Virus record (IMG/VR): IMGVR_UViG_3300002145_000185
Span: 1-21,394 of that record
Length of the DNA stretch: 21,394 nt
From: a virus
Reading direction: 5' to 3' (one strand)
How positions within the stretch are numbered: the first letter of the stretch is position 1; every line of letters begins with the position of its first letter. This document shows, in pieces, positions 5,042 through 21,394 of this stretch. The position numbers and the translations under genes are program-made. The notes under the pieces are model-generated. The model saw only the letters and a list, made by a program, of their open reading frames with translations. It was not told the DNA's origin and made no database searches.

Positions 5042-6571
5042 ATGCCCGAAGCAGTTGAAGCAATCGTCGACGCTGGCGTCATTTCAACGCTCGATAACGC
5101 CTATTGGTTCTTTGAGCCGAGGCCAGACAACGTCGAGCGCGGCGATGAACAGACGACGTTCGTGAACTCGATGAATCCGGGCGTCACGTTTTTGCTGGGC
5201 GGAAACGGATCAGGCACAACAACTGCTGGTTTGTTCAAGGTGGCGAAGTTCATACTAGAGCAGCAGCCTCCACCGCATCGAGACACTCCGTTCTGGATCA
5301 TCGCGGAGAGTTATCAGCAGGTGATGGACGCCTGCTGGAAAGAGAAGCTGTTCGGACGCGGGATGATCCCGGAATCGGAGATCGATCGTCCGAGAATCAG
5401 TTGGTACAAGCCGAACCAGAACTGGCCATACCGCGTGCCGTTGAAGCCGTGGCCGGGGCGTCCCGGCAAAAACTGGGTGCTGGAATTCAAGTCGTATGCT
5501 CAGGGCCGGGCACAGATGCAGGCGTCCGCCATCGGCGGGTTCCTGTTCGTGGAACAATTCCCGTGGGGCATCCTCGAAGAAGTCCTGCGAGGCTGCCGCG
5601 AGTACGAGTTCCGGGGATCGAAACTGGCTGAGTTTACGCCGGTCGATCCGGAGCGGTCGATCAACCTCGAAGAGATGATTGATCGGGACGAACTGCCGCA
5701 GGGCTGGCAGGTCTGCCATGCGAACACGGAGTGTGCCGTCGAAGCCGGGCAGGTGTCACAGGAGTGGTTCGACGAGTTCTTCGGGATGCTGCCGGACGAG
5801 GTCAAGCCGGTCCGTTGCCGTGGAGAATTTGGGAAGTTTGCCGGCCAGATTTACGCCGGCTGGAACGCGAAAATTCACTTGGTCGATGATGACGTGATCG
5901 ACTTTCCGGACGGCGTGCAGTATCGCCGGACAATCGACTGGGGAGCTGGCCCGCAGAACGCGTTCGTTTGCTTGTGGCTTTACCGCAACGGGCTCGGTCA
6001 GTGGTTCGTCTTCGACGAGTATTACTCGACCGACCAGATGCGGGACACTGTCGAACATCTGGTCGCGGTGCAGGAGCGGTCGGCTATATGGCAGTGGAAG
6101 GAAGGCCATCCGCTGTACGGCACGACCTACGCGGACCCATCGAGCCCGGCCAGCATCCGGATCGCCAGCAAGCTCACAAACTATCGACCGGACGTGAAGC
6201 CGATTTCGATCACGCCAGCGAACAACAGCGTGCTCGAAGGGATCGAACACGTGCAGTACCTGCTGAAGTGCGAGCCCGCACTCGATGGACATCCGCGTCT
6301 GTTCGTTCATCAGGACCGGTGCCCGAAGCTGGCACAGCAGATGCGAATTTACCGCTGGGAGCGAGGCTCCGAGTCAGGACTGAATCCGCGAGACGCACGA
6401 CGGCAACCGCTGAAGAAAGACGATCACACGTGCGACGCGTTACGCTATTGTGTATTCACCGAGGCGAGCCGCGTTGGCGGCACGATCGATCGAGTCGCCA
6501 ACGGGCACAAGACGCGAGCGGTGCAGATTCAACGGCATGATCTTGACGCGGTGTTCGATAGGGAGAGGTAA
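5042..6571 (+). CDS. terL: Terminase large subunit with atypical ATPase motifs
   Basis: Five hundred and nine residues, the usual size for the packaging motor. It should translocate DNA through the portal using ATP and cut concatemers with a C-terminal RNase H-like nuclease. The nuclease half looks intact: TIDWGAG (D299), FVFDEYY (D325/E326), YADPSSP (D365) and KKDDHTCDALRY (D460/D461/D465), typical acidic metal-binding positions. The ATPase half is odd. The P-loop is GGNGSGTTT at residues 53-61: the essential Walker A lysine is Thr59. The likely Walker B strand is GFLFVEQ (166-172), with Glu-Gln in place of Asp-Glu. Either the family uses a displaced lysine, or this copy is impaired. The start is ATG 5042, with only a weak ribosome-binding site. 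The KTSC gene follows four bases after the stop. Confidence 0.85.
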   Translation: MPEAVEAIVDAGVISTLDNAYWFFEPRPDNVERGDEQTTFVNSMNPGVTFLLGGNGSGTTTAGLFKVAKFILEQQPPPHRDTPFWIIAESYQQVMDACWKEKLFGRGMIPESEIDRPRISWYKPNQNWPYRVPLKPWPGRPGKNWVLEFKSYAQGRAQMQASAIGGFLFVEQFPWGILEEVLRGCREYEFRGSKLAEFTPVDPERSINLEEMIDRDELPQGWQVCHANTECAVEAGQVSQEWFDEFFGMLPDEVKPVRCRGEFGKFAGQIYAGWNAKIHLVDDDVIDFPDGVQYRRTIDWGAGPQNAFVCLWLYRNGLGQWFVFDEYYSTDQMRDTVEHLVAVQERSAIWQWKEGHPLYGTTYADPSSPASIRIASKLTNYRPDVKPISITPANNSVLEGIEHVQYLLKCEPALDGHPRLFVHQDRCPKLAQQMRIYRWERGSESGLNPRDARRQPLKKDDHTCDALRYCVFTEASRVGGTIDRVANGHKTRAVQIQRHDLDAVFDRER

Positions 6572-7556: not shown

Positions 7557-7775
7557 ATGGCCAAAAACGAGCAAGCGAAAACACCGGACGAATTGTTCCT
7601 GTTCCGGTGCCCTTTCTGCCGGACATCAGGGATAGTCATAGAAACACCGAGCATCCTGTGCCCATATTGCGGTAAGCGTTTTGGTTGGATGGAGATGCGG
7701 CAAGTACGGGTTAAGTTGCGACCAGACGAGAGAGAGAAGTTCGAAGCGGAGGGGCGTAAGACGCGCGGAAGCTGA
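7557..7775 (+). CDS. Small zinc-ribbon protein
   Basis: Seventy-two residues from ATG 7557, preceded by AAGGAAGG. CPFC (C18, C21) and CPYC (C35, C38) form a CxxC-x13-CxxC zinc ribbon of the rubredoxin-like type, flanked by FRCPFCRTSGIV and ILCPYCGKRFGW. The C-terminal third is charged and helical. Such small ribbons are common in phage late operons, where they may bind nucleic acid or stabilise another protein; no partner is evident here. Confidence 0.65.
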   Translation: MAKNEQAKTPDELFLFRCPFCRTSGIVIETPSILCPYCGKRFGWMEMRQVRVKLRPDEREKFEAEGRKTRGS

Positions 7776-7861
7776 CGATCTCGACAAACAGGCGGTGAAC
7801 CTGCTAAATGGCCCGCTCACGCGGCGTACGGATTCGATTCACTTTTCTGAGGACGTTTGAA

Positions 7862-8086
7862 ATGCGATTGCAGCTTGCAGCGACGATTCTGGCAGGACTG
7901 GCATCAGGACCAGAGGCACACGGGATTCAGAGAGGCGACAGCGGGGCGATTGAACTGGCCGTGAAGACGGCATTGTCGCTGGCTGATGCGTTGATTGCCG
8001 CAGCGGAGCAGGTGGAGCTCGATCCCCCGGAAGCCGAGCAGGTGGAGCCGGTCGCGAACGTGCCGCCAACGAAAAAGAAGCCGTAG
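7862..8086 (+). CDS. Small phage protein, helical
   Basis: Seventy-four residues from ATG 7862, chosen because GAGGA lies eight bases upstream; ATG 7808 would add 18 basic residues without a ribosome-binding site. The pattern LAATILAGLASGPEA, later ELAVKTALSLADALIAAAEQ, resembles short phage proteins found among structural genes, often beginning with a Leu/Ala helix and ending near ADALIAEL. The C-terminus is Pro/Val/Lys-rich (PPTKKKP). The stop codon TAG marks the beginning of the duplicated intergenic segment in front of the portal gene. Function unknown. Confidence 0.5.
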   Translation: MRLQLAATILAGLASGPEAHGIQRGDSGAIELAVKTALSLADALIAAAEQVELDPPEAEQVEPVANVPPTKKKP

Positions 8087-8182: not shown

Positions 8183-10315
8183 ATGAACTACGACGAAATC
8201 ACGCACTCAGTAGACGCGAGAGCAGGCGACATTCTGGATCCGTCCCGGCTCGCTGGTGGTCTGCCGGGTGGTGGGAAGTCTCCGTTGCCTCACGTGCTCA
8301 CGTTTTCCGCATTACTGGGTTCCGTCGCGCGCGTTTATCGGCAGTCTGACGAGGCGATCAAAGCCAGTCGCGACAACGCACGCTTCATGCGAAACGACGT
8401 CGGAATCATGGAGTGTCTGGAGTCGAGGCAGCGGTTGACGGCGCTGCTCGACTGGCACATCCAGCCCGAAGACGAGAAGTCTCACGAGCAGGAAGAACTC
8501 TGCGAGGTCGTCACGAAAATCCTGACACGCATGCGGCGGTTCACAGAATATCGACGCTGCATGTTAGAGGCGATCTGGTACGGTCGGACGGCAATTCAGC
8601 ATCGCTGGGGCAAGCAGGACATTGGCGGGCGTCAGTACACGATGCCGATGCCGGAATCTGGCAGAGAGCATTACGGCTGGACACCGATCAACGGTGACAA
8701 GCTCGTCTTCCGGTACGAAGACCCGCGATGGGAAGAGGCGGCTGAGAAACGGGGAGCACTGGGCGGCGTTGGAATCCTGATCAACACCGCCGCCGCCGCC
8801 GGTCAGGGTCTCGATCGGCAGTTTGTGTCGCAGACAGACCGTGGCATGGCCTACTTTCTGCCGACCTGGCAGCGGAAGCTGATTGCGATTCACCGGCACC
8901 AGATTGAAGACGGGCCGTGGGAGTCGCCGCTTGACGCCGGGGCCGTGCATGGTGTCGGCATCCGGAGCCGCATTTACTGGGAGTGGTTCCAGAAACAGGA
9001 ATGCCTGGCGTACCTGCTGGAGTACCTGGAACGCTCAGCGGCGGGGATCGAAATCTGGGAGTATCCGTCAGGCAACGCGGATGCGAAAACCGCAGTTGAA
9101 GAGGCAGCCAGCCAGCGAGGCGGCGGAAACAAGAACGCGATTCTGTTCCCCAAGCCTGCGGGCGACGATGCGGCACTGTTCAACATGCACGTCGTTGAGC
9201 CAGGCATGGCCGGGGCTCAGGTGATTCGCGAACTGCTGGAGCAATACTTCGGGCATCGCATCAAGCGGTACATTCTCGGGCAGACGCTGACGTCAGAAGC
9301 GGACGCGACGGGACTGGGGTCAGGACTGGCAGACCTGCACCTTGACACGCTGATGCAAATCATCAAATACGACGCGCGAAACCTCGAAGAGACGATGACG
9401 TACGAGCTGGTCCGTCCGATTCTCGACTTCAATTTCCCGCACGCACGCGGGATTCACTTGGAGTTCAAGATCCACACTGAAGAGCCGAATCAGGAATCGG
9501 TTCTGCAATCGTATCAGGTGGCCTGGACGATGGGGGCGAGACTCAAGGAGTCCGACGTGTTGGACGCGATTGGGGCGAGCGTGCCGGAAGGCGAGGATGT
9601 GGTGCTCCAGAATCCGCAACTGGCACAGCAGCCAGGACAAATGCCGGGACAGATGCCGGACGATGGCGCGAATGTGTCCGGACAAACCGGACACATTGAG
9701 CAGGGACAGGAGCCGACGACACCGGGACCGGCCAGTGATGTCACGGCAGCCATCGACCTGCACGCCGCGCTCGCGACGGTCGGCAACGACGGAGCCAGCG
9801 GGGACGGGCGAGAGTTTTACGCCCGCGACATTCGAGCGGCACTGGTCGAGGCGGCAGCACTCACGGACATGGATCCGAGCCCAGAGCGAAAGGCGGCAGG
9901 CAACTACCGCAAGGGCTCGTTCTGGTGTCATGGGTTCGAAGTCACGATCGAGAACCCAGCAGGCTCCCAACGTCGCGGCACCGACAAGGACGGCAAGGAG
10001 TGGTCAGTCACGATGCCGCACCACTACGGATACCTGCGACGCACGAGCGGCGCGGATGGTGACCAAGTGGACGTGTTCGTCGGTGACGATCCGGCCTGCG
10101 ATCTTGTCTTCGTCGTCGATCAAATCAAGCCGGACGGCAAGTTTGATGAGCACAAGTGCATGATCGGTTTCCACACGGAAGCTGACGCGCTGAAGGCTTA
10201 CCGCGATTCGTATTCACGCGACTGGAAAGGCTTCAGCGCGATCACCGGCATGACGTGGAAGCAGTTCAGTGACTGGCTGGCAACGGGTTCACAGCGGAAG
10301 CCGGTCGCACCATGA
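8183..10315 (+). CDS. Mu gp29-like portal protein fused to a pyrophosphatase-like domain
   Basis: Seven hundred and ten residues. Residues 40-470 fit the Mu gp29 (DUF935) portal family: NDVGIMECLESRQRLTALLD (71-90), WYGRTAIQHRW (132-142), GWTPI (165-169), YWEWFQKQECLAYLLEYLER (265-284) and the hallmark LGQTLTSEADATGLGSGLAD (365-384). Portals form the dodecameric ring through which DNA passes. A Pro/Gln/Gly-rich linker (480-520) follows. Residues 573-700 form a second domain: GNYRKGSFWCHGFEVTIENP, MPHHYGYLRRT, then DGDQVDVFVG (626-635). That is close to the family I inorganic pyrophosphatase signature (D-x-D-x-x-D; D626, D628, D631), and it is known as a domain of phage polyvalent proteins. 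Upstream lies a terminator, and the ribosome-binding site is weak (TGGAC). The stop overlaps a tiny downstream ORF. Confidence 0.85.
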   Translation: MNYDEITHSVDARAGDILDPSRLAGGLPGGGKSPLPHVLTFSALLGSVARVYRQSDEAIKASRDNARFMRNDVGIMECLESRQRLTALLDWHIQPEDEKSHEQEELCEVVTKILTRMRRFTEYRRCMLEAIWYGRTAIQHRWGKQDIGGRQYTMPMPESGREHYGWTPINGDKLVFRYEDPRWEEAAEKRGALGGVGILINTAAAAGQGLDRQFVSQTDRGMAYFLPTWQRKLIAIHRHQIEDGPWESPLDAGAVHGVGIRSRIYWEWFQKQECLAYLLEYLERSAAGIEIWEYPSGNADAKTAVEEAASQRGGGNKNAILFPKPAGDDAALFNMHVVEPGMAGAQVIRELLEQYFGHRIKRYILGQTLTSEADATGLGSGLADLHLDTLMQIIKYDARNLEETMTYELVRPILDFNFPHARGIHLEFKIHTEEPNQESVLQSYQVAWTMGARLKESDVLDAIGASVPEGEDVVLQNPQLAQQPGQMPGQMPDDGANVSGQTGHIEQGQEPTTPGPASDVTAAIDLHAALATVGNDGASGDGREFYARDIRAALVEAAALTDMDPSPERKAAGNYRKGSFWCHGFEVTIENPAGSQRRGTDKDGKEWSVTMPHHYGYLRRTSGADGDQVDVFVGDDPACDLVFVVDQIKPDGKFDEHKCMIGFHTEADALKAYRDSYSRDWKGFSAITGMTWKQFSDWLATGSQRKPVAP
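9671..9697 (+). repeat. Perfect 11-bp inverted repeat inside the portal linker
   Basis: AATGTGTCCGG (9671-9681) and CCGGACACATT (9687-9697) are exact reverse complements around ACAAA. It lies in the codons for the linker between portal and pyrophosphatase-like domains (residues 497-505). No T-run follows. It could be an mRNA hairpin, a protein-binding palindrome or a scar of the fusion. Confidence 0.85.
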
Positions 10316-10391: not shown

Positions 10392-13300
10392 ATGGTCGCA
10401 CACGCTCTCACTGAAGAAATCAACCGAGCCGTCGCACTCCGCCAGCGAGAGTCGTACGCGAAGCACAAATCAGCCCCTGGCCAGAAGGAGCTTCAGTGGA
10501 TCACGATCGGCGGGACGCCTGACGGTGACAAGAAGCACGCTGGCGGCACGCCGGTTCAGATCACGAAGACAGGCCAGATCACGAAGGGGCCGAAGGATCT
10601 GACCGGGCACAAGGTCGGTGAGCTGGGTGCGAAGACGCGCAAGGCGAACGAGGCGAAAGCGAGCGCCGAGACGGCGGCGAAGAAGAAACCGGCGAAGGTA
10701 GAGAGCATCGGTGGTAGCAGCAGTGAGCTTGAACCGTGGCAAAAAACACGCGAGGAATATGAAGGCGAAAATCGCGGGCGAGGATTACCAAAAGGCAACT
10801 ATGACGCAGAGATTGAGACAGCCATCGAAGAGGGCAAGCCCGTTCCTCGTCATATCGTGAAGGAGTTTGCGTCAGTCGCAAAAGAACACGCTCCACACTT
10901 ACTGACTCAAGCAGAGTATCAAAAGCAAAGGTATGGCGACGACGACGGCAAAGGCGGACACTTCCACGAACTGCATGTGGCGCATCGAGAGAAACTTGCA
11001 AAGGAGCATCGAAAGTATGTTGAGGATGCGATCAGTAACGGCAAGCATGTTCCTGACGATGTTCTGGCGGAGCATAAGGTCGACGAACTGGGGAGCAAGA
11101 CGCGGCGAGAGAATGAGGCGAAAGCGAACGCGGGGAGCAGCGGACAACCTGCGGATGAGTCACGTGCTGAACTGAAGAAAAAACCAGCATCACCCAAAGG
11201 CCCGCAATCGTTCGATGCGCTGAATGTCACGGCCACGAAAGAGGGCCGTCGAGTGTGGTTGTCCGGCAAGACGTTCGACCACAAAGACACCATCAGGGCG
11301 GCTGGTGGAAAGTGGGACAGTGATTCACAGCGGTGGTGGATCGGCTCCGCAAAGTGGAGCGATCTGGAAAGCAAGCTCCAAGCGAAAAACGACAAGCTGG
11401 CGAAATTTGCACCCGCAGAACAGAAGGCGACTCCGGCAACGGATTCGCCGAACGAGCCAAAGCCAGCACCAGCCAGCAAAATCACAATTGGCGGAAACAC
11501 GTTCGCGCATAAAGACAAGATTCGAGCGGCTGGGGGGAAGTGGGACGGCGCCCGCAAAGTATGGACGGTGGACAGCAAAGCGGCGGAGAAGCTGCGGAAC
11601 CTGTCTGGTCTGAAGTTCTCAGATGACGCGGCGAAACAGCAGGCGGCGAAAGCCGAGACGATGGCGGCAGGTCAAGCGGAGTTCGAGGCTGCGGAGAAGT
11701 CGCATCCGCACCGATCATCTATGTCGGCAAACGATACCGATGCAGCATTTGCGAAAGCCCTGATCGAGAAGCACGGCGGTAAGAATTTTCCAGACAGGCA
11801 TCAATCTCGATTTGAGACTGCCGAGCAGAGGGACGCGTTCGAATCCGAAGCCCGTGCCACTGTGGCGAAAATGCAAGCGGACGAGACAACTAAAGCACAG
11901 GAAAAACACGTCGCGACAGTCCAGAAGCACGGTCGGACGCCACGCGGAAACGGCAGGGCGTCCAGCTTCACCGCACACGCTGGGCACGGGCGGCGGGCAC
12001 AGGTGGAAGCAAACTACGAACAGAGGCAGCCCGGGGACATCATCCACCGCAAAGATGGCCCGTGGATGGTCACTGAATCGAGCCGTCCGCATTTCGTGAG
12101 TGACGATCATATCGAGGATATGGACGCCTGGAGTAATTTCAAGCAGGGAGCAGGCTGGTACGCTGAGTATAAGGCCGTGCCTGTCGAGCCGAACGATGTG
12201 GACGTCGCCACTGCCAAAGCCGCAGAAAAGGCGAAGGTCAGAGCGACCGCCATCGAGGATATCAAGCGGACAGCGAGGCAAATGCAGGCACTCGCGGCGG
12301 ACGATGACCGGCATTACGAGTCGGCAAACTATAAGCAGGCGATGGCGAACCTGAAGCGACTGGAAGCGGGAGAGGACGCGGTCGAGATCATCGGCGGTGC
12401 GGAGAAATACGCACTTCGCCGCGAGTTCGATCGAGCGTTTGCAGTCGAGCGCGAGCAGTACGCGAAACGCAAATCAGCTCCCGGCCAGAAAACTCTGAAG
12501 TGGATCACGCTGAAGAACGACGATGGTGGCGGCGGGACTCACGTCCAGATCGACGGCAAGGGGCAGATCCAGAAGGGGCCGCAGTCGCTCACAGGGCACA
12601 AGGTCGGCGAACTGGGAGTGGCGAAGCGGCGGGAGAACGAGGCGAAGGCGAACGAGCCGGAGACGAAGGCACAAACCCCGGCACCAGTCAACAACGACAA
12701 GCCAAAGGCACGGCCTCTCAGTGCCACAGCGTCGATCGGACAGGCAATGCACGCCATGACGGAACTCGGGTACTCCGTCGCCCACAAGCCACTGAGGTAC
12801 GACCTGAAGACGAAAACGGCATGGTATGAGGTGACGAAACCCAGCGGCGACGTCGTGCCGATGACCGCCGATGACATTCGCGCCACGGTGAAAGCCGGAG
12901 CCAAGCCGAAGCCAGCACCTGCACAGGCTGCACCGGCACCAGTCAATAAAGGGAACAGCGAACACAAGGCCGAGACTGCCGCGAAGAAGAAACCGGCGAT
13001 GAAACTCGATGAAACTCGACGAAACTCGACGAAACCAGACACCGGAATTCCGCGAGTACCGAACGAGGAGTTCGTTTCTGGCGAACTGGCACCGGCGAAG
13101 CCAGAAGAAAAAAACGACCGAACGTACTGGTACGGGATGCGTCTCCGCCCACCGGGACCGGGGGCAACTCCCCGTGACCACAGCGAACTGGGAGAGCACG
13201 AAGATTTCAGGCACGGAATGATTGGATACGCCGAACCACTATCGGAAAAGGATATTTACGATCACGACCTAACGCCGATTCGAGAAGCGGGCGACATCCC

Positions 13301-14588
13301 GGCAGTGGCATCCGCCGTCGCGAAAAAACTGGGCCGGTATGCGAGCCGATACATCAACGACCCTAACCAGAAGCTGTTGGATGACCGACTCAAGAAGGAC
13401 GACATGCGGACGATTATCGGACACGCAGACATGGATGCTGTTAAATCCGAGTTAAAGCGGGCGCACGAGTCCGCTAAGAAGACAGCACCGCAGCCAGTGA
13501 ACAGCACACTCGGCGACAAGCCGAAGCCATCCGCACCTGCCCCGTTCAAGCCCGCCCCAGTCCCCGGACAACAGATGGGGCTGTTCGGCCAGACAAACAG
13601 CGGGCAGGGGCAACTGTTCAACGTTGCCAAGCCCGGAAAGCGGGACGCGAAAGCAGCAGCTCAGGCGTCGATGCTTGAACAGATCGAAGACTCGATCAAG
13701 AAACGCGAGGCCGAGGCAGTACCGCTCAAGGGGCAGCGGGAAATGTTCTCACGAAGCCTGACGGACGAGATCAATCGTGCTGTTCGCGTTGAGCGATACG
13801 AATTGCGGCCAGCGACTGAGCCAGCAAAGCGGAAACGGAGACGTCAGCCGGACAAGGTCACCGCCCCGAAGAAACGACAACCGGGCGACGGCTCTGCAGG
13901 CTGGCAGCGAGTCGGCGGGGCTCCGGTGTTCGTCAACGGCGACGGCAAGATCACCAAAGGATGCCCGGGTCTCAAGAACGAGCACGTCAGTGACCTGATC
14001 GACGAGCCGGATGATTCCCGCGAGCGTCGCGAGGTGAGACAGGCACACGCGAAAGCGGAAGGGATCGACGGCAAACAATACTCCGCCAGCGACAGACGCC
14101 GTCATGAGACGAAAAAGGCACAGGCGGCACACGCAAACGCGAAGGCCGCAGCAAAGCAACACGGAGTTGCGACGCACGAGGTGCTGAAGGAAATGCCCGC
14201 GCAGCACGAGGCGACGTCGTTCGAGGATCGTGAGACGGAAGCAGCACGCAAGCGGGCTCGGCAGATGACCGGCCTGACGGCAGGGCGGCAGGCTGCGATC
14301 GAGAATCGTTACGAGGATTACAGCACGTTCCCAGGCTTCGATGAGTCGTCACGGGATTTCGCGTCAGAGTACCCGCACCTGTTCGATCCTGACGGCGACG
14401 ACACGCCCGCGCAGGTCTGGGAGTTCATCCGCGAAGGCAAGCAGTCAGCAGAGTCCGCAAACAGCGAATCCGTCGCAGGTCGCGCGGCAGAGAGACTGGC
14501 CAGCCTGCGAAATAGCGTCGCTACGGAGCTCGATGACGCATTGTCGTTCGGATTCGGGGCCAATGTGCCCGAAGACGACAGTTTCTAG
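10392..14588 (+). CDS. Giant mosaic (polyvalent-type) phage protein
   Basis: One thousand three hundred and ninety-eight residues from ATG 10392, with TTAGGA about nine bases upstream. The upstream open frame is a shadow of the portal end. It is a string of modules with Ala/Pro/Lys linkers. Module A occurs three times: residues 6-90 (LTEEINRAV, KSAPGQK, ITKGPKDLTGHKVGELG), 674-754 (KSAPGQK, IQKGPQSLTGHKVGELG), and diverged at 1120-1205 (LTDEINRAV, ITKGCPGL). A partial tail copy is at 225-246. A GGKWD motif appears at 294-316 and 370-393, resembling DUF5710-type units. Residues 912-965 (YWYGMRLRPPGPGATP, then DHDLTPI) form another apparent domain. QQMGLF and QGQLF (1060-1076) resemble sliding-clamp-binding peptides. 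No enzyme active site is evident. Such proteins are often injected with phage DNA; that role is inferred. Confidence 0.7.
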   Translation: MVAHALTEEINRAVALRQRESYAKHKSAPGQKELQWITIGGTPDGDKKHAGGTPVQITKTGQITKGPKDLTGHKVGELGAKTRKANEAKASAETAAKKKPAKVESIGGSSSELEPWQKTREEYEGENRGRGLPKGNYDAEIETAIEEGKPVPRHIVKEFASVAKEHAPHLLTQAEYQKQRYGDDDGKGGHFHELHVAHREKLAKEHRKYVEDAISNGKHVPDDVLAEHKVDELGSKTRRENEAKANAGSSGQPADESRAELKKKPASPKGPQSFDALNVTATKEGRRVWLSGKTFDHKDTIRAAGGKWDSDSQRWWIGSAKWSDLESKLQAKNDKLAKFAPAEQKATPATDSPNEPKPAPASKITIGGNTFAHKDKIRAAGGKWDGARKVWTVDSKAAEKLRNLSGLKFSDDAAKQQAAKAETMAAGQAEFEAAEKSHPHRSSMSANDTDAAFAKALIEKHGGKNFPDRHQSRFETAEQRDAFESEARATVAKMQADETTKAQEKHVATVQKHGRTPRGNGRASSFTAHAGHGRRAQVEANYEQRQPGDIIHRKDGPWMVTESSRPHFVSDDHIEDMDAWSNFKQGAGWYAEYKAVPVEPNDVDVATAKAAEKAKVRATAIEDIKRTARQMQALAADDDRHYESANYKQAMANLKRLEAGEDAVEIIGGAEKYALRREFDRAFAVEREQYAKRKSAPGQKTLKWITLKNDDGGGGTHVQIDGKGQIQKGPQSLTGHKVGELGVAKRRENEAKANEPETKAQTPAPVNNDKPKARPLSATASIGQAMHAMTELGYSVAHKPLRYDLKTKTAWYEVTKPSGDVVPMTADDIRATVKAGAKPKPAPAQAAPAPVNKGNSEHKAETAAKKKPAMKLDETRRNSTKPDTGIPRVPNEEFVSGELAPAKPEEKNDRTYWYGMRLRPPGPGATPRDHSELGEHEDFRHGMIGYAEPLSEKDIYDHDLTPIREAGDIPAVASAVAKKLGRYASRYINDPNQKLLDDRLKKDDMRTIIGHADMDAVKSELKRAHESAKKTAPQPVNSTLGDKPKPSAPAPFKPAPVPGQQMGLFGQTNSGQGQLFNVAKPGKRDAKAAAQASMLEQIEDSIKKREAEAVPLKGQREMFSRSLTDEINRAVRVERYELRPATEPAKRKRRRQPDKVTAPKKRQPGDGSAGWQRVGGAPVFVNGDGKITKGCPGLKNEHVSDLIDEPDDSRERREVRQAHAKAEGIDGKQYSASDRRRHETKKAQAAHANAKAAAKQHGVATHEVLKEMPAQHEATSFEDRETEAARKRARQMTGLTAGRQAAIENRYEDYSTFPGFDESSRDFASEYPHLFDPDGDDTPAQVWEFIREGKQSAESANSESVAGRAAERLASLRNSVATELDDALSFGFGANVPEDDSF
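10407..10661 (+). repeat. Module A copy 1 in the giant protein
   Basis: Encodes residues 6-90: LTEEINRAV, SAPGQK, ITKTGQITKGPKDLTGHKVG and NEAKA. Closely similar to copy 2 at 12411-12653. Confidence 0.7.
11250..11345 (+). repeat. GGKWD unit copy 1
   Basis: Encodes residues 287-318 with KTFDHKDTIRAAGGKWD followed by a Trp-rich end. Pairs with the unit at 11481-11570 (NTFAHKDKIRAAGGKWD). Confidence 0.75.
11481..11570 (+). repeat. GGKWD unit copy 2
   Basis: Encodes residues 364-393. Eleven of the core residues (HKD-IRAAGGKWD) are the same as in copy 1. Confidence 0.75.
12411..12653 (+). repeat. Module A copy 2 in the giant protein
   Basis: Encodes residues 674-754: REFDRAFAVEREQYAKRKSA, PGQKTLKWIT, VQIDGKGQIQKGPQSLTGHK and RRENEAKANE. 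Followed, as in copy 1, by a low-complexity linker. Confidence 0.7.
13001..13035 (+). repeat. 10-bp tandem repeat within a coding region
   Basis: GAAACTCGAT at 13001, GAAACTCGAC at 13011 and 13021, then GAAAC at 13031: 3.5 units of ten bases. The period is not a multiple of three, so unit gain or loss shifts the frame. Loss of one unit moves translation into a frame that stops at 13219-13221. Confidence 0.9.
13749..14006 (+). repeat. Module A copy 3, diverged
   Basis: Encodes residues 1120-1205: RSLTDEINRAVRVER, a basic insert, WQRVGGAPVFVNGDGKITKG, then CPGLKNEHVSDLID. Same order of blocks as copies 1 and 2 but lower identity and no SAPGQK. Confidence 0.55.
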
Positions 14589-14905: not shown

Positions 14906-16507
14906 ATGCAGCCGCTCTGTCATCCACATCCCGGAGAGTCGCAACCCGCATTCGCGGTGCGATTCCACTCGTCCATGCGGCGAGCGATGCCGGACACGGA
15001 CCAGCGCAACCGCGCGATGTTTGCGGCGTGGCAGGAAGTCGGCGACGGCGGGCAACTGAATCGGATCGCGTCGCAGGAATTCCCGGCAGAGAAATACGTT
15101 CGCGTCCCGTGCGCTCCAGTGTTCAAAGAGCACGCGACGCGAGAAGGCCGTGATCGGCGTCCGGTCAAATACGGTCGCGATGAACTGATCGCGTTAATCG
15201 ACTCGAACAATCATCGGATCGCGGACACCGGCAACTTCTCGCCGATCACAGACGGCCACACGCCATCTGATGAAGACGTGGAGTCTGGTCGGGCAAAGCG
15301 TCCGGACGTGCTCGGATACGCTGGACCGTACTACCTCGGGATGATCGGTCGCAAAGAGCCTCGATGGGCAATCTTTGCCGACGAGCATCACCGCAAAGAG
15401 TGCTTCGAGCGATCGAAAGCCAAGCGATACCGCAGCCCGGAAGTGTGGCTCGAAAGCCGCATGGAAGACCGGTTCTTCAGTCCGATCGCCGCGCTGGAAT
15501 CCGAGACCCCGCGACTTGAACTCGGCATGGTCCGGTACGGTCGCAAGCCGTCCGGGGCACTGGTCGAGAAATACTCGGCGGCGGCGTTCCCGTCTGCCGC
15601 GAGCGTCGTCGTTAAATCAACCAAATATGCCGCAGACAGCGGCGAAGAGGACTCGACTATGCTGAGCCCGGAAGACCGACAAGAGCTTGTCAATGCGATT
15701 CTGAATTCGGCCCCGATGCAGTGGGTGCTGGAGCAGATGCAGGGCGGAGAACCGGACGGTGACGAGCAAGCCACTGATGGGTTCGGCGAGTTCGACGACG
15801 ACGACGACGCAACGGACAGTTACCCAGGACAAGGGAACGGTCCAGCCAGTCCACCACAGGATCAACCACAGGCACCACCGACACAACCACAAGCAGCCGC
15901 ACCACAACCGCAGCCAGCCGCACCGCAGCCAACTGACGGCATGGATGACGATGAGCGAGAAGAGTACGCCTCTTTGAGTTCGGACGGTCAGGCAGGCTAC
16001 ATGAAGGCCCGCAAGCGATACATGTCCGCAGGTTCCGCCGAGCAGTATTCGCGACGCGGGAACGCCGAGCAGATCGCCCGCGACCGTGCGTTGCGTGAGG
16101 ACTATTCACGAGTCAGTGCGGATAATCAGAGGCTTCGGGAAGACCTTGCTGTCGCTACCGCATCCAACAAAGTGGCGACCCGTCGCGAGCGATACTCGAA
16201 GCTGAAAGACGCCGGATACATCTTCGACATCGACAAGGAGTTGTCCCGTTCAGCCGGCCTCGATGATGACGCGTTCGAAATTCAGCTTGAGACGATCGCG
16301 GAGCACTATCAACGAGCCCCGCTGTCATCGTCGGTCCCTGAAATTCCCGTCGAACGATCGCCACAACTGAGGGCGGATTCCACGACGGATTCCGAGCGCG
16401 AAAACTACTCGAAACGTGCGACGGAATACGTGTTGTCTCAACGTCAGGCAGGCAAGAAGATCACGTTTGCCGAAGCGATGGCTATCGTCAATCCGCCAAA
16501 AGCCTGA
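14906..16507 (+). CDS. Mu I-like capsid protease with scaffold C-terminus
   Basis: Five hundred and thirty-three residues. Residues 5-45 (CHPHPGESQPAFAVRFHSSM, then TDQRNRAMFAAW) form a short module found at the start of other phage prohead proteases or adjacent proteins. Residues 60-235 fit the Mu I-type protease: FSPITDGHTP with H118, DVLGYAGPYYLG, RWAIFADEHH, RYRSPEVW and RFFSPIAALESETPRL. Residues 297-345 are an acidic run then a Pro/Gln-rich linker. Residues 346-533 are charged and helical with a probable coiled coil (385-430), as expected of a scaffold that is cleaved away as the capsid matures. ATG 14906 has only a weak TGGAC upstream; no other in-frame start exists before the TGA at 14855. 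Catalytic residues are not proven here. Confidence 0.75.
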   Translation: MQPLCHPHPGESQPAFAVRFHSSMRRAMPDTDQRNRAMFAAWQEVGDGGQLNRIASQEFPAEKYVRVPCAPVFKEHATREGRDRRPVKYGRDELIALIDSNNHRIADTGNFSPITDGHTPSDEDVESGRAKRPDVLGYAGPYYLGMIGRKEPRWAIFADEHHRKECFERSKAKRYRSPEVWLESRMEDRFFSPIAALESETPRLELGMVRYGRKPSGALVEKYSAAAFPSAASVVVKSTKYAADSGEEDSTMLSPEDRQELVNAILNSAPMQWVLEQMQGGEPDGDEQATDGFGEFDDDDDATDSYPGQGNGPASPPQDQPQAPPTQPQAAAPQPQPAAPQPTDGMDDDEREEYASLSSDGQAGYMKARKRYMSAGSAEQYSRRGNAEQIARDRALREDYSRVSADNQRLREDLAVATASNKVATRRERYSKLKDAGYIFDIDKELSRSAGLDDDAFEIQLETIAEHYQRAPLSSSVPEIPVERSPQLRADSTTDSERENYSKRATEYVLSQRQAGKKITFAEAMAIVNPPKA

Positions 16508-17052: not shown

Positions 17053-18102
17053 GTGGCTCAATTTCCTTCAAGCACTAACGTCTTTGTCAAAAGTCCCGAG
17101 GCAAGCGGCAACTTGATCGTGGACTTCTCGCGTGATCCGAGCAAGTTTGCCGTCTCGGAGTATGCTCAGATCGTCCCGGTGAAGAAACCGGCCGGACTGT
17201 ACCATGTAATGACAGTCGAAGAGGCTGGCCGTGTTCTGGGGGCCGATGCCGCCGAATACGACTGGGCAGATGGAGCCGACGCGCCGGATGGCAGCGACGG
17301 AACCGAATCGTTCGACTTGCCGCAGTTTCAGACTCGTCGATCGGCGTATCCGTACCGGCTCGGTCAACGGACTGTCGATAACGCTGAATGGGAGATCGCC
17401 GCGCAGCATGGCCGGATTCACGCTCAGAAAGCGATGACCGTCCGCACAATGCGAGCCGTCACGGCTCTGACGACGTCGGGCAATTACGACTCGACGCACG
17501 TCTCTGCGATTAGTGGCGGCTCGATCACTGGAACGACTGGCACCTGGGCACAGTCAACGTCAACGCGTCAGGATATCAAGCGGTCGCTCAACCATGCGGC
17601 TGAATTGATCATGCTGGACACGCTCAGCGCGATCGACATTGACGAGCTGATGGTCGTGATCAGTCCGACGTTGGCTAAGGAGATGTCTGTCTCGCAAGAA
17701 ATTGTGGACATGATCAAGCAGTCGTCTGACGCGAAATACTACGTGTCGGGCGAAGGCAAGTTCACGAACAAGAACGCCAAATTCGGACTTCCGCCGACGC
17801 TGTACGGTTACCCAATCGTGATCGAAAACACGGTTCGGGTGACGAGCCGCAAGGGCGCGACAAAGGCTCGGTCCTTTGTGATGCCGGCGTCGTCCGCAGT
17901 CATGTGCAGCCGCCCTGGTGGAATCGATGGCGTGGCCGGTCAGCCGTCGTTTTCGACGCTGACGATGTTCATGCTCGAAGAGATGACAGTCGAGACAAAG
18001 CAGGATCCGGACAACCGCCTGACGAAAGGTCGCGTTGTCGATGATTACGCCACGGTCATGACGGCTCCAGTGTCCGGGTTCCTGTTCACTGGCTGCTCGT
18101 AA
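17053..18102 (+). CDS. Major capsid protein
   Basis: Three hundred and forty-nine residues from GTG 17053, chosen for the strong GGAGGT seven bases upstream, fitting a highly expressed structural gene. Size, position after decoration protein and downstream terminator all fit the capsid subunit. Features of HK97-fold capsids include an N-terminal arm, RSAYPYRLGQRTVDNAEWEI (96-115) leading into long helices, IDIDELMVVISPTLAKEM in the middle, and GYPIVIENTVRV near the P-domain. The ISPTLAKEM and YPIVI blocks are common in phage capsid proteins. No cleavage site can be proved. Family assignment rests mainly on gene order and these patterns. Confidence 0.75.
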   Translation: MAQFPSSTNVFVKSPEASGNLIVDFSRDPSKFAVSEYAQIVPVKKPAGLYHVMTVEEAGRVLGADAAEYDWADGADAPDGSDGTESFDLPQFQTRRSAYPYRLGQRTVDNAEWEIAAQHGRIHAQKAMTVRTMRAVTALTTSGNYDSTHVSAISGGSITGTTGTWAQSTSTRQDIKRSLNHAAELIMLDTLSAIDIDELMVVISPTLAKEMSVSQEIVDMIKQSSDAKYYVSGEGKFTNKNAKFGLPPTLYGYPIVIENTVRVTSRKGATKARSFVMPASSAVMCSRPGGIDGVAGQPSFSTLTMFMLEEMTVETKQDPDNRLTKGRVVDDYATVMTAPVSGFLFTGCS

Positions 18103-19647: not shown

Positions 19648-19826
19648 ATCGAGCAGCGTTGCGAAACGGGGCTGAGGTGCTGTCCGGCATCAACTTCGCG
19701 ACGGCGAAAGAGTTGCCGAGAGACCTGTTTCTTGCGATCCATGATGACGAAGCTGAGGCGGTCGCGATGCACGCAAAACATCAGTCGGACGTGGCGATGG
19801 CAGCAGCACGAAGGGACTCAGAGTGA
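19216..19826 (+). CDS. Tail assembly chaperone, long (GT-type) form by -1 frameshift
   Basis: If ribosomes slip back one base at the A-run, translation joins codon 109 to the frame ending at 19826, giving 203 residues. The added part begins SQYWSDMANQYGIGV and continues DAELEFGLWLNLNRAALRNG, SGINFATAKELPRDLFLAIH and a C-terminal Ala/Asp/Arg tail. It is a plausible folded domain with no stop until 19824-19826, where its TGA overlaps the GTG of the next gene. That this frame is long, open and coupled to the tape-measure candidate supports real frameshifting rather than an error. Confidence 0.75.
19534..19573 (+). other. Programmed -1 ribosomal frameshift signal
   Basis: Nine A at 19534-19542 read as AAA AAA AAA in the G frame, containing an A-AAA-AAA slip heptamer. 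After a five-base spacer, TACTGGT (19548-19554) pairs perfectly with ACCAGTA (19567-19573) over a 12-base loop. Slip sequence, spacer and stem are the three parts of classical -1 signals. Confidence 0.85.
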
Positions 19827-21394
19827 CCGAGAAACCAGACAAGCCGCATGGTGCAGCCTGGCCGTTCCGGTCTCTTGGGGAGATCCTGTCCGGGCTGATG
19901 CTGGATCGCAGAAGCCTGAAGCCAGGCGACGAAGCGGACTTCGATCCTCGCCCGAAATCGATGGCACAGAAAGCGACCGCCAGCATCAGTGCCGCGTTTT
20001 CCCGTCCGCTCTCTGCCGTGGCGAGTGGCGTGGCGTTGACGACGCAGGCCGTGAAGTACGCAACCAATCGCGTGCAGCGTGGAGCCGGTGGGGACCGAAT
20101 CGTCAGCGAGGCGGAGGCGGCAGGGTTCGCGAACATTCCGCCGAACGAGTTCCGCGAACTGCTCAATCGGCATCCAGAGTTAAAGGTCGCTGCGATTCGT
20201 GAGGGGAAGCCTCACTATTGGGTCAACGACATCATTCAGGCCGCCAGTCGAGACGCGGAGATCGGCCAGCAGTGGCTCGCGTCCGGGAAGCCGGGCACTG
20301 AGACTCCTGTCGCCGAGGCTCCGGGACTGTCGCTGTCTCCGTTCGCGGCGTTCCGTGCGAGCATTCCGGCACCGGCAGTGACTGAGCCGGGCGTGATGCG
20401 GTCGCTGGCGGGGTTTTCGCCTGCGTCGCCTGAGCCTGCTGCGCTGACATCGGCTGCACCGGATGCGATCGACATCAGAACGCTGCAATCAGAACTGGCC
20501 CGGCTCAACAAGGAGTCTGCCGCACTCGGTTCCGGTCGAGGGATGCCACCAGCAGAGTATTCGGCTCGCCAGCGAGAGTTGTCGAACGAAATCGCCTCCG
20601 TGAAGCGGGCAATGCTGTCACAGCTCAAACCGTCGCAGAGCCTCACGCCCGCAATGGACGACTGGCGTTCTGCCGTCAACCTGTCCGCCGAATCTGCGGC
20701 TGAGCCACCTGGCAATCCTGCCAAGCCGGAAACGACGTTCACGACCGCCAAAGAGCAGAACCTGACTCCGGAATCGTCAGCAGTAGCCGCAGCATGGCAG
20801 CAGCATCAGGACGGCTACCCGCGAGCAGAAGACGTGCAGATTCAGGAATCGCCGCGACGGGAGAAGAAATCGTGGTGGCGTGCCGCTATTGCTCGTTTGG
20901 CTGGATCAACCAGCCGGACAGGGGGCGACGAAACCGAAGGAGCTGGAGCAGGCTCGGATACGGACGACGATCCACAACAGAAGCAACGACGACCGGCCAA
21001 AAAGAGGTCACGACGACAACCCAGTTCGGCGCACACAGTTGCCCGCGTGGCGAGGTCGTTCGAGTCGTCTTTCGGGACTGGTCGCCTGGGGCGGTTTTTT
21101 GGCCAGGTAGGTGACGCTGCTGAGTCGTGGGATGATGACGACGACGACGACGACGACGATGATGACGACGATCGAACAAAGAGGCGCGGCTCCAATCGGC
21201 GAAAGCCATCCAAGGCGGTGAAAGGGATTGCCGGAGCTGCTCGCGGATACCGCACTGGCGGACTCAGGGGTGCATTGTCCGGCGGAATCCGAGGCGTGCT
21301 CGGCGTCGGTGGCGCGGCTGCTGGTGGTGGCGCGGCTTCTGGCGCTGGTGGCGCGGCTGCAATCGTCGCAGGCGGTGCCGCTCTGACTGTCGCT
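19823..21394 (+). CDS. Probable tape-measure protein, 3'-truncated by the window edge
   Basis: I translated this frame by hand to the edge: 524 codons without a stop. It starts at GTG 19823, overlapping the chaperone stop (GTGA), with AAGGGA six bases upstream. The N-terminal 150 residues contain helical stretches (FRSLGEILSGLMLDRR, then SAVASGVALTTQAVKYATNR) and a PPNEFRELLNRHPELKVAAI segment. The middle is long, Pro/Ala/Ser-rich, with a coiled-coil-like run (IRTLQSELARLNKESAAL). Then comes basic-acidic-basic patterning: QRRPAKKRSRRQ, 14 consecutive Asp (residues 437-450), and RTKRRGSNRRKPSK. The last residues are Gly/Ala-rich and hydrophobic. Position after the chaperone and this composition suggest the tail length-determining protein; full length is unknown. 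Confidence 0.65.
   Translation, partial: MTEKPDKPHGAAWPFRSLGEILSGLMLDRRSLKPGDEADFDPRPKSMAQKATASISAAFSRPLSAVASGVALTTQAVKYATNRVQRGAGGDRIVSEAEAAGFANIPPNEFRELLNRHPELKVAAIREGKPHYWVNDIIQAASRDAEIGQQWLASGKPGTETPVAEAPGLSLSPFAAFRASIPAPAVTEPGVMRSLAGFSPASPEPAALTSAAPDAIDIRTLQSELARLNKESAALGSGRGMPPAEYSARQRELSNEIASVKRAMLSQLKPSQSLTPAMDDWRSAVNLSAESAAEPPGNPAKPETTFTTAKEQNLTPESSAVAAAWQQHQDGYPRAEDVQIQESPRREKKSWWRAAIARLAGSTSRTGGDETEGAGAGSDTDDDPQQKQRRPAKKRSRRQPSSAHTVARVARSFESSFGTGRLGRFFGQVGDAAESWDDDDDDDDDDDDDDRTKRRGSNRRKPSKAVKGIAGAARGYRTGGLRGALSGGIRGVLGVGGAAAGGGAASGAGGAAAIVAGGAALTVA
21131..21172 (+). repeat. GAY trinucleotide run coding 14 Asp
   Basis: Fourteen GAC/GAT codons in the tape-measure candidate. Smaller Asp runs from the same kind of codon repeat occur at 271-285, 3648-3656 and 15794-15808. 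Confidence 0.85.
21308..21358 (+). repeat. Three copies of a 12-base Gly-Gly-Ala-Ala unit
   Basis: GGTGGCGCGGCT at 21308-21319, 21326-21337 and 21347-21358, exact each time, separated by 6 and 9 bases. It codes GGAA inside the Gly/Ala-rich hydrophobic end of the truncated ORF. Confidence 0.85.

Follow-up and report, generated by a model that had tools for sequence, protein, structure and literature searches.

In the virus described here, a portal protein of the Mu gp29 family is continued, in one reading frame, by an InPase domain that retains its active-site aspartates and is under purifying selection, and the same fusion recurs in related loci. Within this clade, the tail of the portal serves as a slot for exchangeable cargo, which holds nothing, an InPase, an ADP-ribosyltransferase, a helicase or a sigma-70-like stretch. 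Portal-InPase fusions as such are already known, and what is new here is the Mu-type portal family. InPase fusions are thus found on both Phage_portal_3 and Mu-type portals, and the Mu-type cargo changes among close relatives, so that the portal tail offers a natural experiment on how effectors are loaded into phage heads. Our preferred reading, tentatively given a probability of about 0.45, is that the InPase would be C-terminal virion cargo of the portal, freed by a protease, ejected and active in the new host.

A pyrophosphatase-like domain on a Mu-type portal

The window, meaning the whole stretch of DNA analysed, corresponds to an IMG/VR virus record 21,394 bases long, and its genes and motifs located below between 5042 and 18102 lie on the plus strand. 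The fusion gene (8183-10315; 710 aa) is one uninterrupted open reading frame of 710 codons, from the ATG at 8183 to the stop at 10315. Residues 69-464 (8387-9574) match Portal_Mu (PF06074) with 137 bits against a cut-off of 23.9 (E 1.2e-39) and the portal family phrog_113. Together with the nearby genes for a large terminase subunit (5042-6571; phrog_2, E 5.7e-15) and a probable major capsid protein (17053-18102; phrog_1005, E 2.3e-4), this bears out the Mu gp29-type portal first proposed for the region. A low-complexity linker rich in P, G and Q follows (residues 471-542; 9593-9808), in support of the flexible connection that had also been proposed, and then the InPase domain (PF18823; residues 568-699; 9884-10279), which scores 178 bits against a cut-off of 26.8 (E 1.3e-52) over profile positions 2-134 of 135. 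Both profile scores are far above chance. The protein carries a single effector domain, where polyvalent proteins carry several. By analogy with the portal family and with phage JBD30, twelve subunits would form a ring at one vertex. The host phylum is probably Planctomycetota, since six genome relatives of the portal sit in Planctomycetota genomes. At the far end of the window, a 3′-open reading frame (19823-21394) contains a run of about 14 aspartates.

The initial annotation had also recognized a family I pyrophosphatase-type domain, and two of the checks that it proposed, profile search and structure prediction, point to that family. We aligned 15 InPase domains of viral loci, and the AlphaFold2 model based on them reached a pLDDT of 86.5 and a pTM of 0.80. 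Its best Foldseek matches in the PDB were without exception inorganic pyrophosphatases of family I (28 at E<=1e-3), with probabilities near 1.00 and TM scores of about 0.3-0.48, and the portal of Serratia phage MTx appeared among the best viral structure matches. The classical Pyrophosphatase profile (PF00719) gave 15.8 and 19.0 bits on the fusion protein, below its cut-off of 23.5, and judged by sequence the domain is a relative, not a member, of the classical soluble inorganic pyrophosphatases.

The motif DGDQVDV (residues 625-631; 10055-10075, or DGDQVDVF to 10078) is paired by hhalign with DGDPVDV of the E. coli pyrophosphatase (ppa), which makes D625, D627 and D630 the counterparts of D65, D67 and D70. 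E590 and Y615 probably correspond to E20 and Y55 of the E. coli enzyme. InPase domains are described as lacking a beta-hairpin that cellular pyrophosphatases have between their first two strands; compared by length alone, E590-Y615 spans 25 residues against 35 for E20-Y55, 10 fewer, which is the direction that such a loss would predict. An FDEHK block (residues 654-658; within FDEHKCM, 10142-10162) is invariant in all 15 aligned domains and, paired by eye, is tentatively the counterpart of D102/K104.

The two nearest relatives, L024 and L025, come from two different metagenomes and present the same one-frame order of portal, linker and InPase in 936 aa, with 72% identity to the window in the portal and 64% in the InPase. 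Between the window and L024, Nei-Gojobori estimates, with dS near saturation, were dN 0.238, dS 1.56 and dN/dS about 0.15 for the portal core, dN 0.239, dS 1.47 and dN/dS about 0.16 for the InPase, and dN 0.66, dS 1.0 and dN/dS 0.66 for the roughly aligned linker (residues 480-540). Purifying selection on the InPase is therefore as strong as on the portal. The source is a single metagenomic contig, from which one might fear that annotation or assembly had joined two genes; however, frame and order are repeated in contigs from two other samples, dN/dS is equal in both parts, and GC3 is 0.737 and 0.738 on the two sides of the fusion. We rejected such an artefact, whose probability is negligible. 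In L024, a nucleotidyltransferase-like stretch (7558-8010; NTP_transf_2, E 0.0022, below the cut-off) lies between portal and InPase.

Known fusions and the variable portal tail

The domain had initially been thought foreign to portals, which is wrong. InPase versions fused to a portal domain (BcepF1.124), and proposed to be packaged and possibly injected, were described in 2017 (Iyer et al. 2017, PMC5512222), and another is present in the Pa193 portal (PDB 9b41). A literature search under “pyrophosphatase domain” retrieved no portal, the point being covered as “InPase” in the same work. The search for other portal fusions that had been recommended found them in hundreds of Pseudomonas phage records and in PDB 9b41. 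The combination of Phage_portal_3 (PF06381) and InPase occurs in BcepF1.124, Pa193 gp19, E. coli phage Bas98 and Aeromonas phage Gekk3-15, and in the metagenomic loci L014, L019 and L020. In L019 and L020, another residue stands in place of the first DGDxxD aspartate (AEGDMEWMD), and their InPase is possibly inactive or altered.

The gp124 protein of the Burkholderia phage BcepF1 likewise bears the InPase (PF18823) at the C-terminus of its portal; however, that portal belongs to Phage_portal_3 (PF06381), whereas the portal of the window belongs to the Mu gp29 family (PF06074). The window protein is a portal-InPase in the 2017 sense of an in-frame fusion; the PF06381 portal, which it lacks, characterizes the published case and does not define such fusions. 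The portal gp19 of Pa193 and E217 (PDB 9b41, 8FVH; 765 aa) is also a Phage_portal_3 protein, unlike that of the window, and in Pa193 its InPase lies at about residues 635-753 (phmmer E 1.3e-30 to the window domain). The published model of the Pa193 portal covers residues 94-528, and residues 529-765 had no density in the cryo-EM map (PMC11042391); the text of that paper contains no match to “pyrophosphat” and does not mention the InPase. The E217 portal, of the same architecture, was modelled for residues 97-528 of 765, with a C-terminal barrel that projects into the head (PMC10329688). The Mu gp29-type portals of JBD30 (gp32, of known structure) and DMS3 are related to the window portal by tblastn, with about 26% identity, and match it without the InPase part. 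MuF proteins with C-terminal effectors and polyvalent proteins similarly combine a head protein with swappable enzymatic effectors (Iyer et al. 2017, PMC5512222), but in the window this part is played by the portal ring.

Among 50,697 cultured phage records, where matches always fell short of 80% query coverage and a distant case could be missed, we found no Mu-type portal with an InPase; the best matches of the portal part were DMS3/JBD30-like portals. A “putative portal” with an InPase in Achromobacter phage CF418P1 showed no portal domain by Pfam in the part examined and was not counted.

The Mu-type portals of related loci differ chiefly in what follows the core. The tail is little developed or absent in L002/L026, L003, L005, L032-L034 and L044-L046, as it is in five complete Planctomycetota genome portals of 502-572 aa. 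Besides the window, an InPase is carried by L024/L025, L006, L037-L041 and L048, and ART-PolyVal ADP-ribosyltransferase domains are fused to the portals of L027, L028, L036 and L051. Two sister loci load several effectors on one portal: the L028 tail combines a PAPS reductase with the ADP-ribosyltransferase and a weak methyltransferase match, and L048 (5857-11106) encodes portal, InPase and a Strawberry-notch-like SF2 helicase in one frame of 1,749 aa. Further long tails have no assigned domain, in proteins of up to 2,250 aa in all (L047). The portals of L037-L041, of about 1,260 aa, contain between the core and the C-terminal InPase a sigma-70-like stretch, which in L037 (5893-9678) matches TIGR02937 with E 9.4e-10 and 38.4 bits, slightly below the cut-off of 42.9, and which a PDB profile search relates weakly to RpoS (0.12). 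On these sequence matches, a virion-borne sigma factor on the portal is possible.

In L032 and L005, a short portal is followed by a separate downstream gene for the InPase. On the portal tree, the InPase label needs at least 5 changes (about 4, counted by eye, without the truncated contigs L042/L043), which speaks against the fusion having arisen once. The InPase tree, however, has too little resolution to tell repeated gain from repeated loss, and one ancestral InPase may have moved between the portal tail and the neighbouring gene.

A motif shared by linker, scaffold and cargo

About 20 residues before the InPase, the sequence REFYARD (9809-9829) forms a candidate site for the maturation protease. 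It is one of the seven occurrences of E-x-Y-[AS]-[RK] in the linker, the downstream protein and the scaffold part of the protein encoded at 14906-16507. Two of them lie in the downstream protein, one near its N-terminus (ESYAK, 10449-10463) and one between its modules (EQYAK, 12453-12467), and four in the scaffold part: EQYSR (16040-16054), EDYSR (16097-16111), ERYSK (16187-16201) and ENYSK (16400-16414). These seven compare with 0.12 expected, and none of 5,000 shuffles reached as many, while ten control proteins or domains held none (0.16 expected). Since the motif was picked after inspecting the window, 23 other loci offer a fairer test. There, in shuffle statistics that ignore the shared ancestry of related loci, Y[AS][RK] exceeded expectation in portal tails (23 against 6.9 expected, sd 2.6) and in downstream genes (35 against 12.8, sd 3.7), whereas portal cores (4 against 6.1) and upstream genes (17 against 20.1) showed no excess. 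Many of the copies lie where two modules meet, and a [FW]DExxHPRxxxGxF segment often comes next.

We propose that the motif marks maturation-protease sites, and such sites would explain why scaffold, cargo and portal linker all contain it. Much of the pattern would also follow from a linker repeat prone to recombination; a shared linker could spread the motif without its being a protease site. The initial suggestion that the capsid protease could cut the domain free is strengthened by this shared motif and stops short of proof.

The downstream gene (10392-14588) encodes a polyvalent-type protein with DarA_C and DUF5710 domains, a probable second virion cargo, whose family phrog_1926 is annotated as “released from the phage upon host infection”. 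The protein, of about 1,400 aa, has a repeated module of YAKxKSAPGQKxLxWIT followed by GGTxVxI and GxIxKGP. DarA of phage P1, an ejected protein from which the prohead protease removes an N-terminal piece (PMC12810830), provides a precedent for protease-cut, ejected cargo, and the downstream protein shares its DarA_C domain. The gene at 14906-16507 occupies the protease/scaffold position by gene order, and its homologues keep GHT, S-x-E-x-W and P-I-x-x-L invariant. Its product had no match in PHROGs, Pfam or NCBIfam and none by Foldseek from a mediocre model (pLDDT 67), and may represent a new branch of the prohead proteases.

Possible roles of the InPase domain

According to our preferred reading, about twelve InPase domains would sit inside the head, each on a flexible linker, at the head-facing C-termini of the portal, a position taken from published portal structures of other phages. 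During head maturation, the phage protease would cut the linker at residues 544-548, and at the same motif would destroy the scaffold and trim the neighbouring cargo protein. The freed InPase would leave with the DNA into the newly infected cell and hydrolyse pyrophosphate or another phosphoanhydride, such as a nucleotide defence signal, and thereby favour early phage gene expression. Delivery to the host cell is favoured because ADP-ribosyltransferase, helicase and sigma-like activities suit a cell and not a DNA-filled head. The missing density for residues 529-765 of Pa193 is also what one would expect of tethered or freed domains. Against this reading, twelve copies are few for an enzyme that is to be injected, and the channel of the related Mu-type portal of JBD30 is about 30 Å wide, so that a folded InPase might need to unfold to pass. 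The linker motif common to several proteins is a concrete prediction for the cutting step; the fusion occurs in the Pa193 group, described as therapeutic, and in E. coli phage Bas98, and cutting, ejection and activity are thus directly testable. A wider version, which we hold to be rather doubtful, would make the portal a general cargo loader, the phage's own protease recognizing E-x-Y-[AS]-[RK] to cut scaffold, linker and polyvalent proteins alike and freeing effectors such as InPase, ADP-ribosyltransferase or even a sigma-like factor for ejection with the genome.

Terminase motors release ADP and phosphate and not pyrophosphate. Packaging therefore supplies no substrate, and we rejected on these grounds the role during packaging that the initial annotation had offered. 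Newly made portal, whether free or already on procapsids, could instead hydrolyse, before assembly, the pyrophosphate of phage DNA and RNA synthesis in the producing cell, and the domain would be inert in the virion. This requires neither cutting nor ejection and would agree with a domain that is intact and constrained. However, portals are made late and in few copies, the host already possesses a pyrophosphatase, and the ADP-ribosyltransferase, helicase and sigma-like cargoes of sister loci, together with the DarA_C neighbour, fit delivery better. We regard it as improbable, even with the general proposal that pyrophosphate removal aids polymerases (Iyer et al. 2017, PMC5512222).

The target of a delivered InPase could also be, instead of pyrophosphate, a nucleotide signal induced by infection, in which case the domain would counter defence. 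Iyer et al. suggested that InPases might act on nucleotides or on pyrophosphate, the nucleotide-like substrates being suggested from NUDIX, GNAT and TmrB neighbourhoods (Iyer et al. 2017, PMC5512222), and the shorter E590-Y615 segment might leave the active site more open. On the other hand, the domain has the motifs of a pyrophosphatase; this variant, which overlaps with our preferred reading, is possible but on the unlikely side. Decidedly unlikely is a domain that stays permanently on the portal with a structural role in the head, as a plug, a DNA contact or a spacer, possibly without catalysis. The C-terminal region of Pa193, which belongs to the deposited chain and merely lacks density, would agree with it, as would the changed aspartate, one of three, in L019/L020, but the window retains these residues. 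Moreover, the close relatives L005 and L026 have no such domain on their portals and other relatives bear unrelated ones, which would not be tolerated if the domain were an essential structural part.
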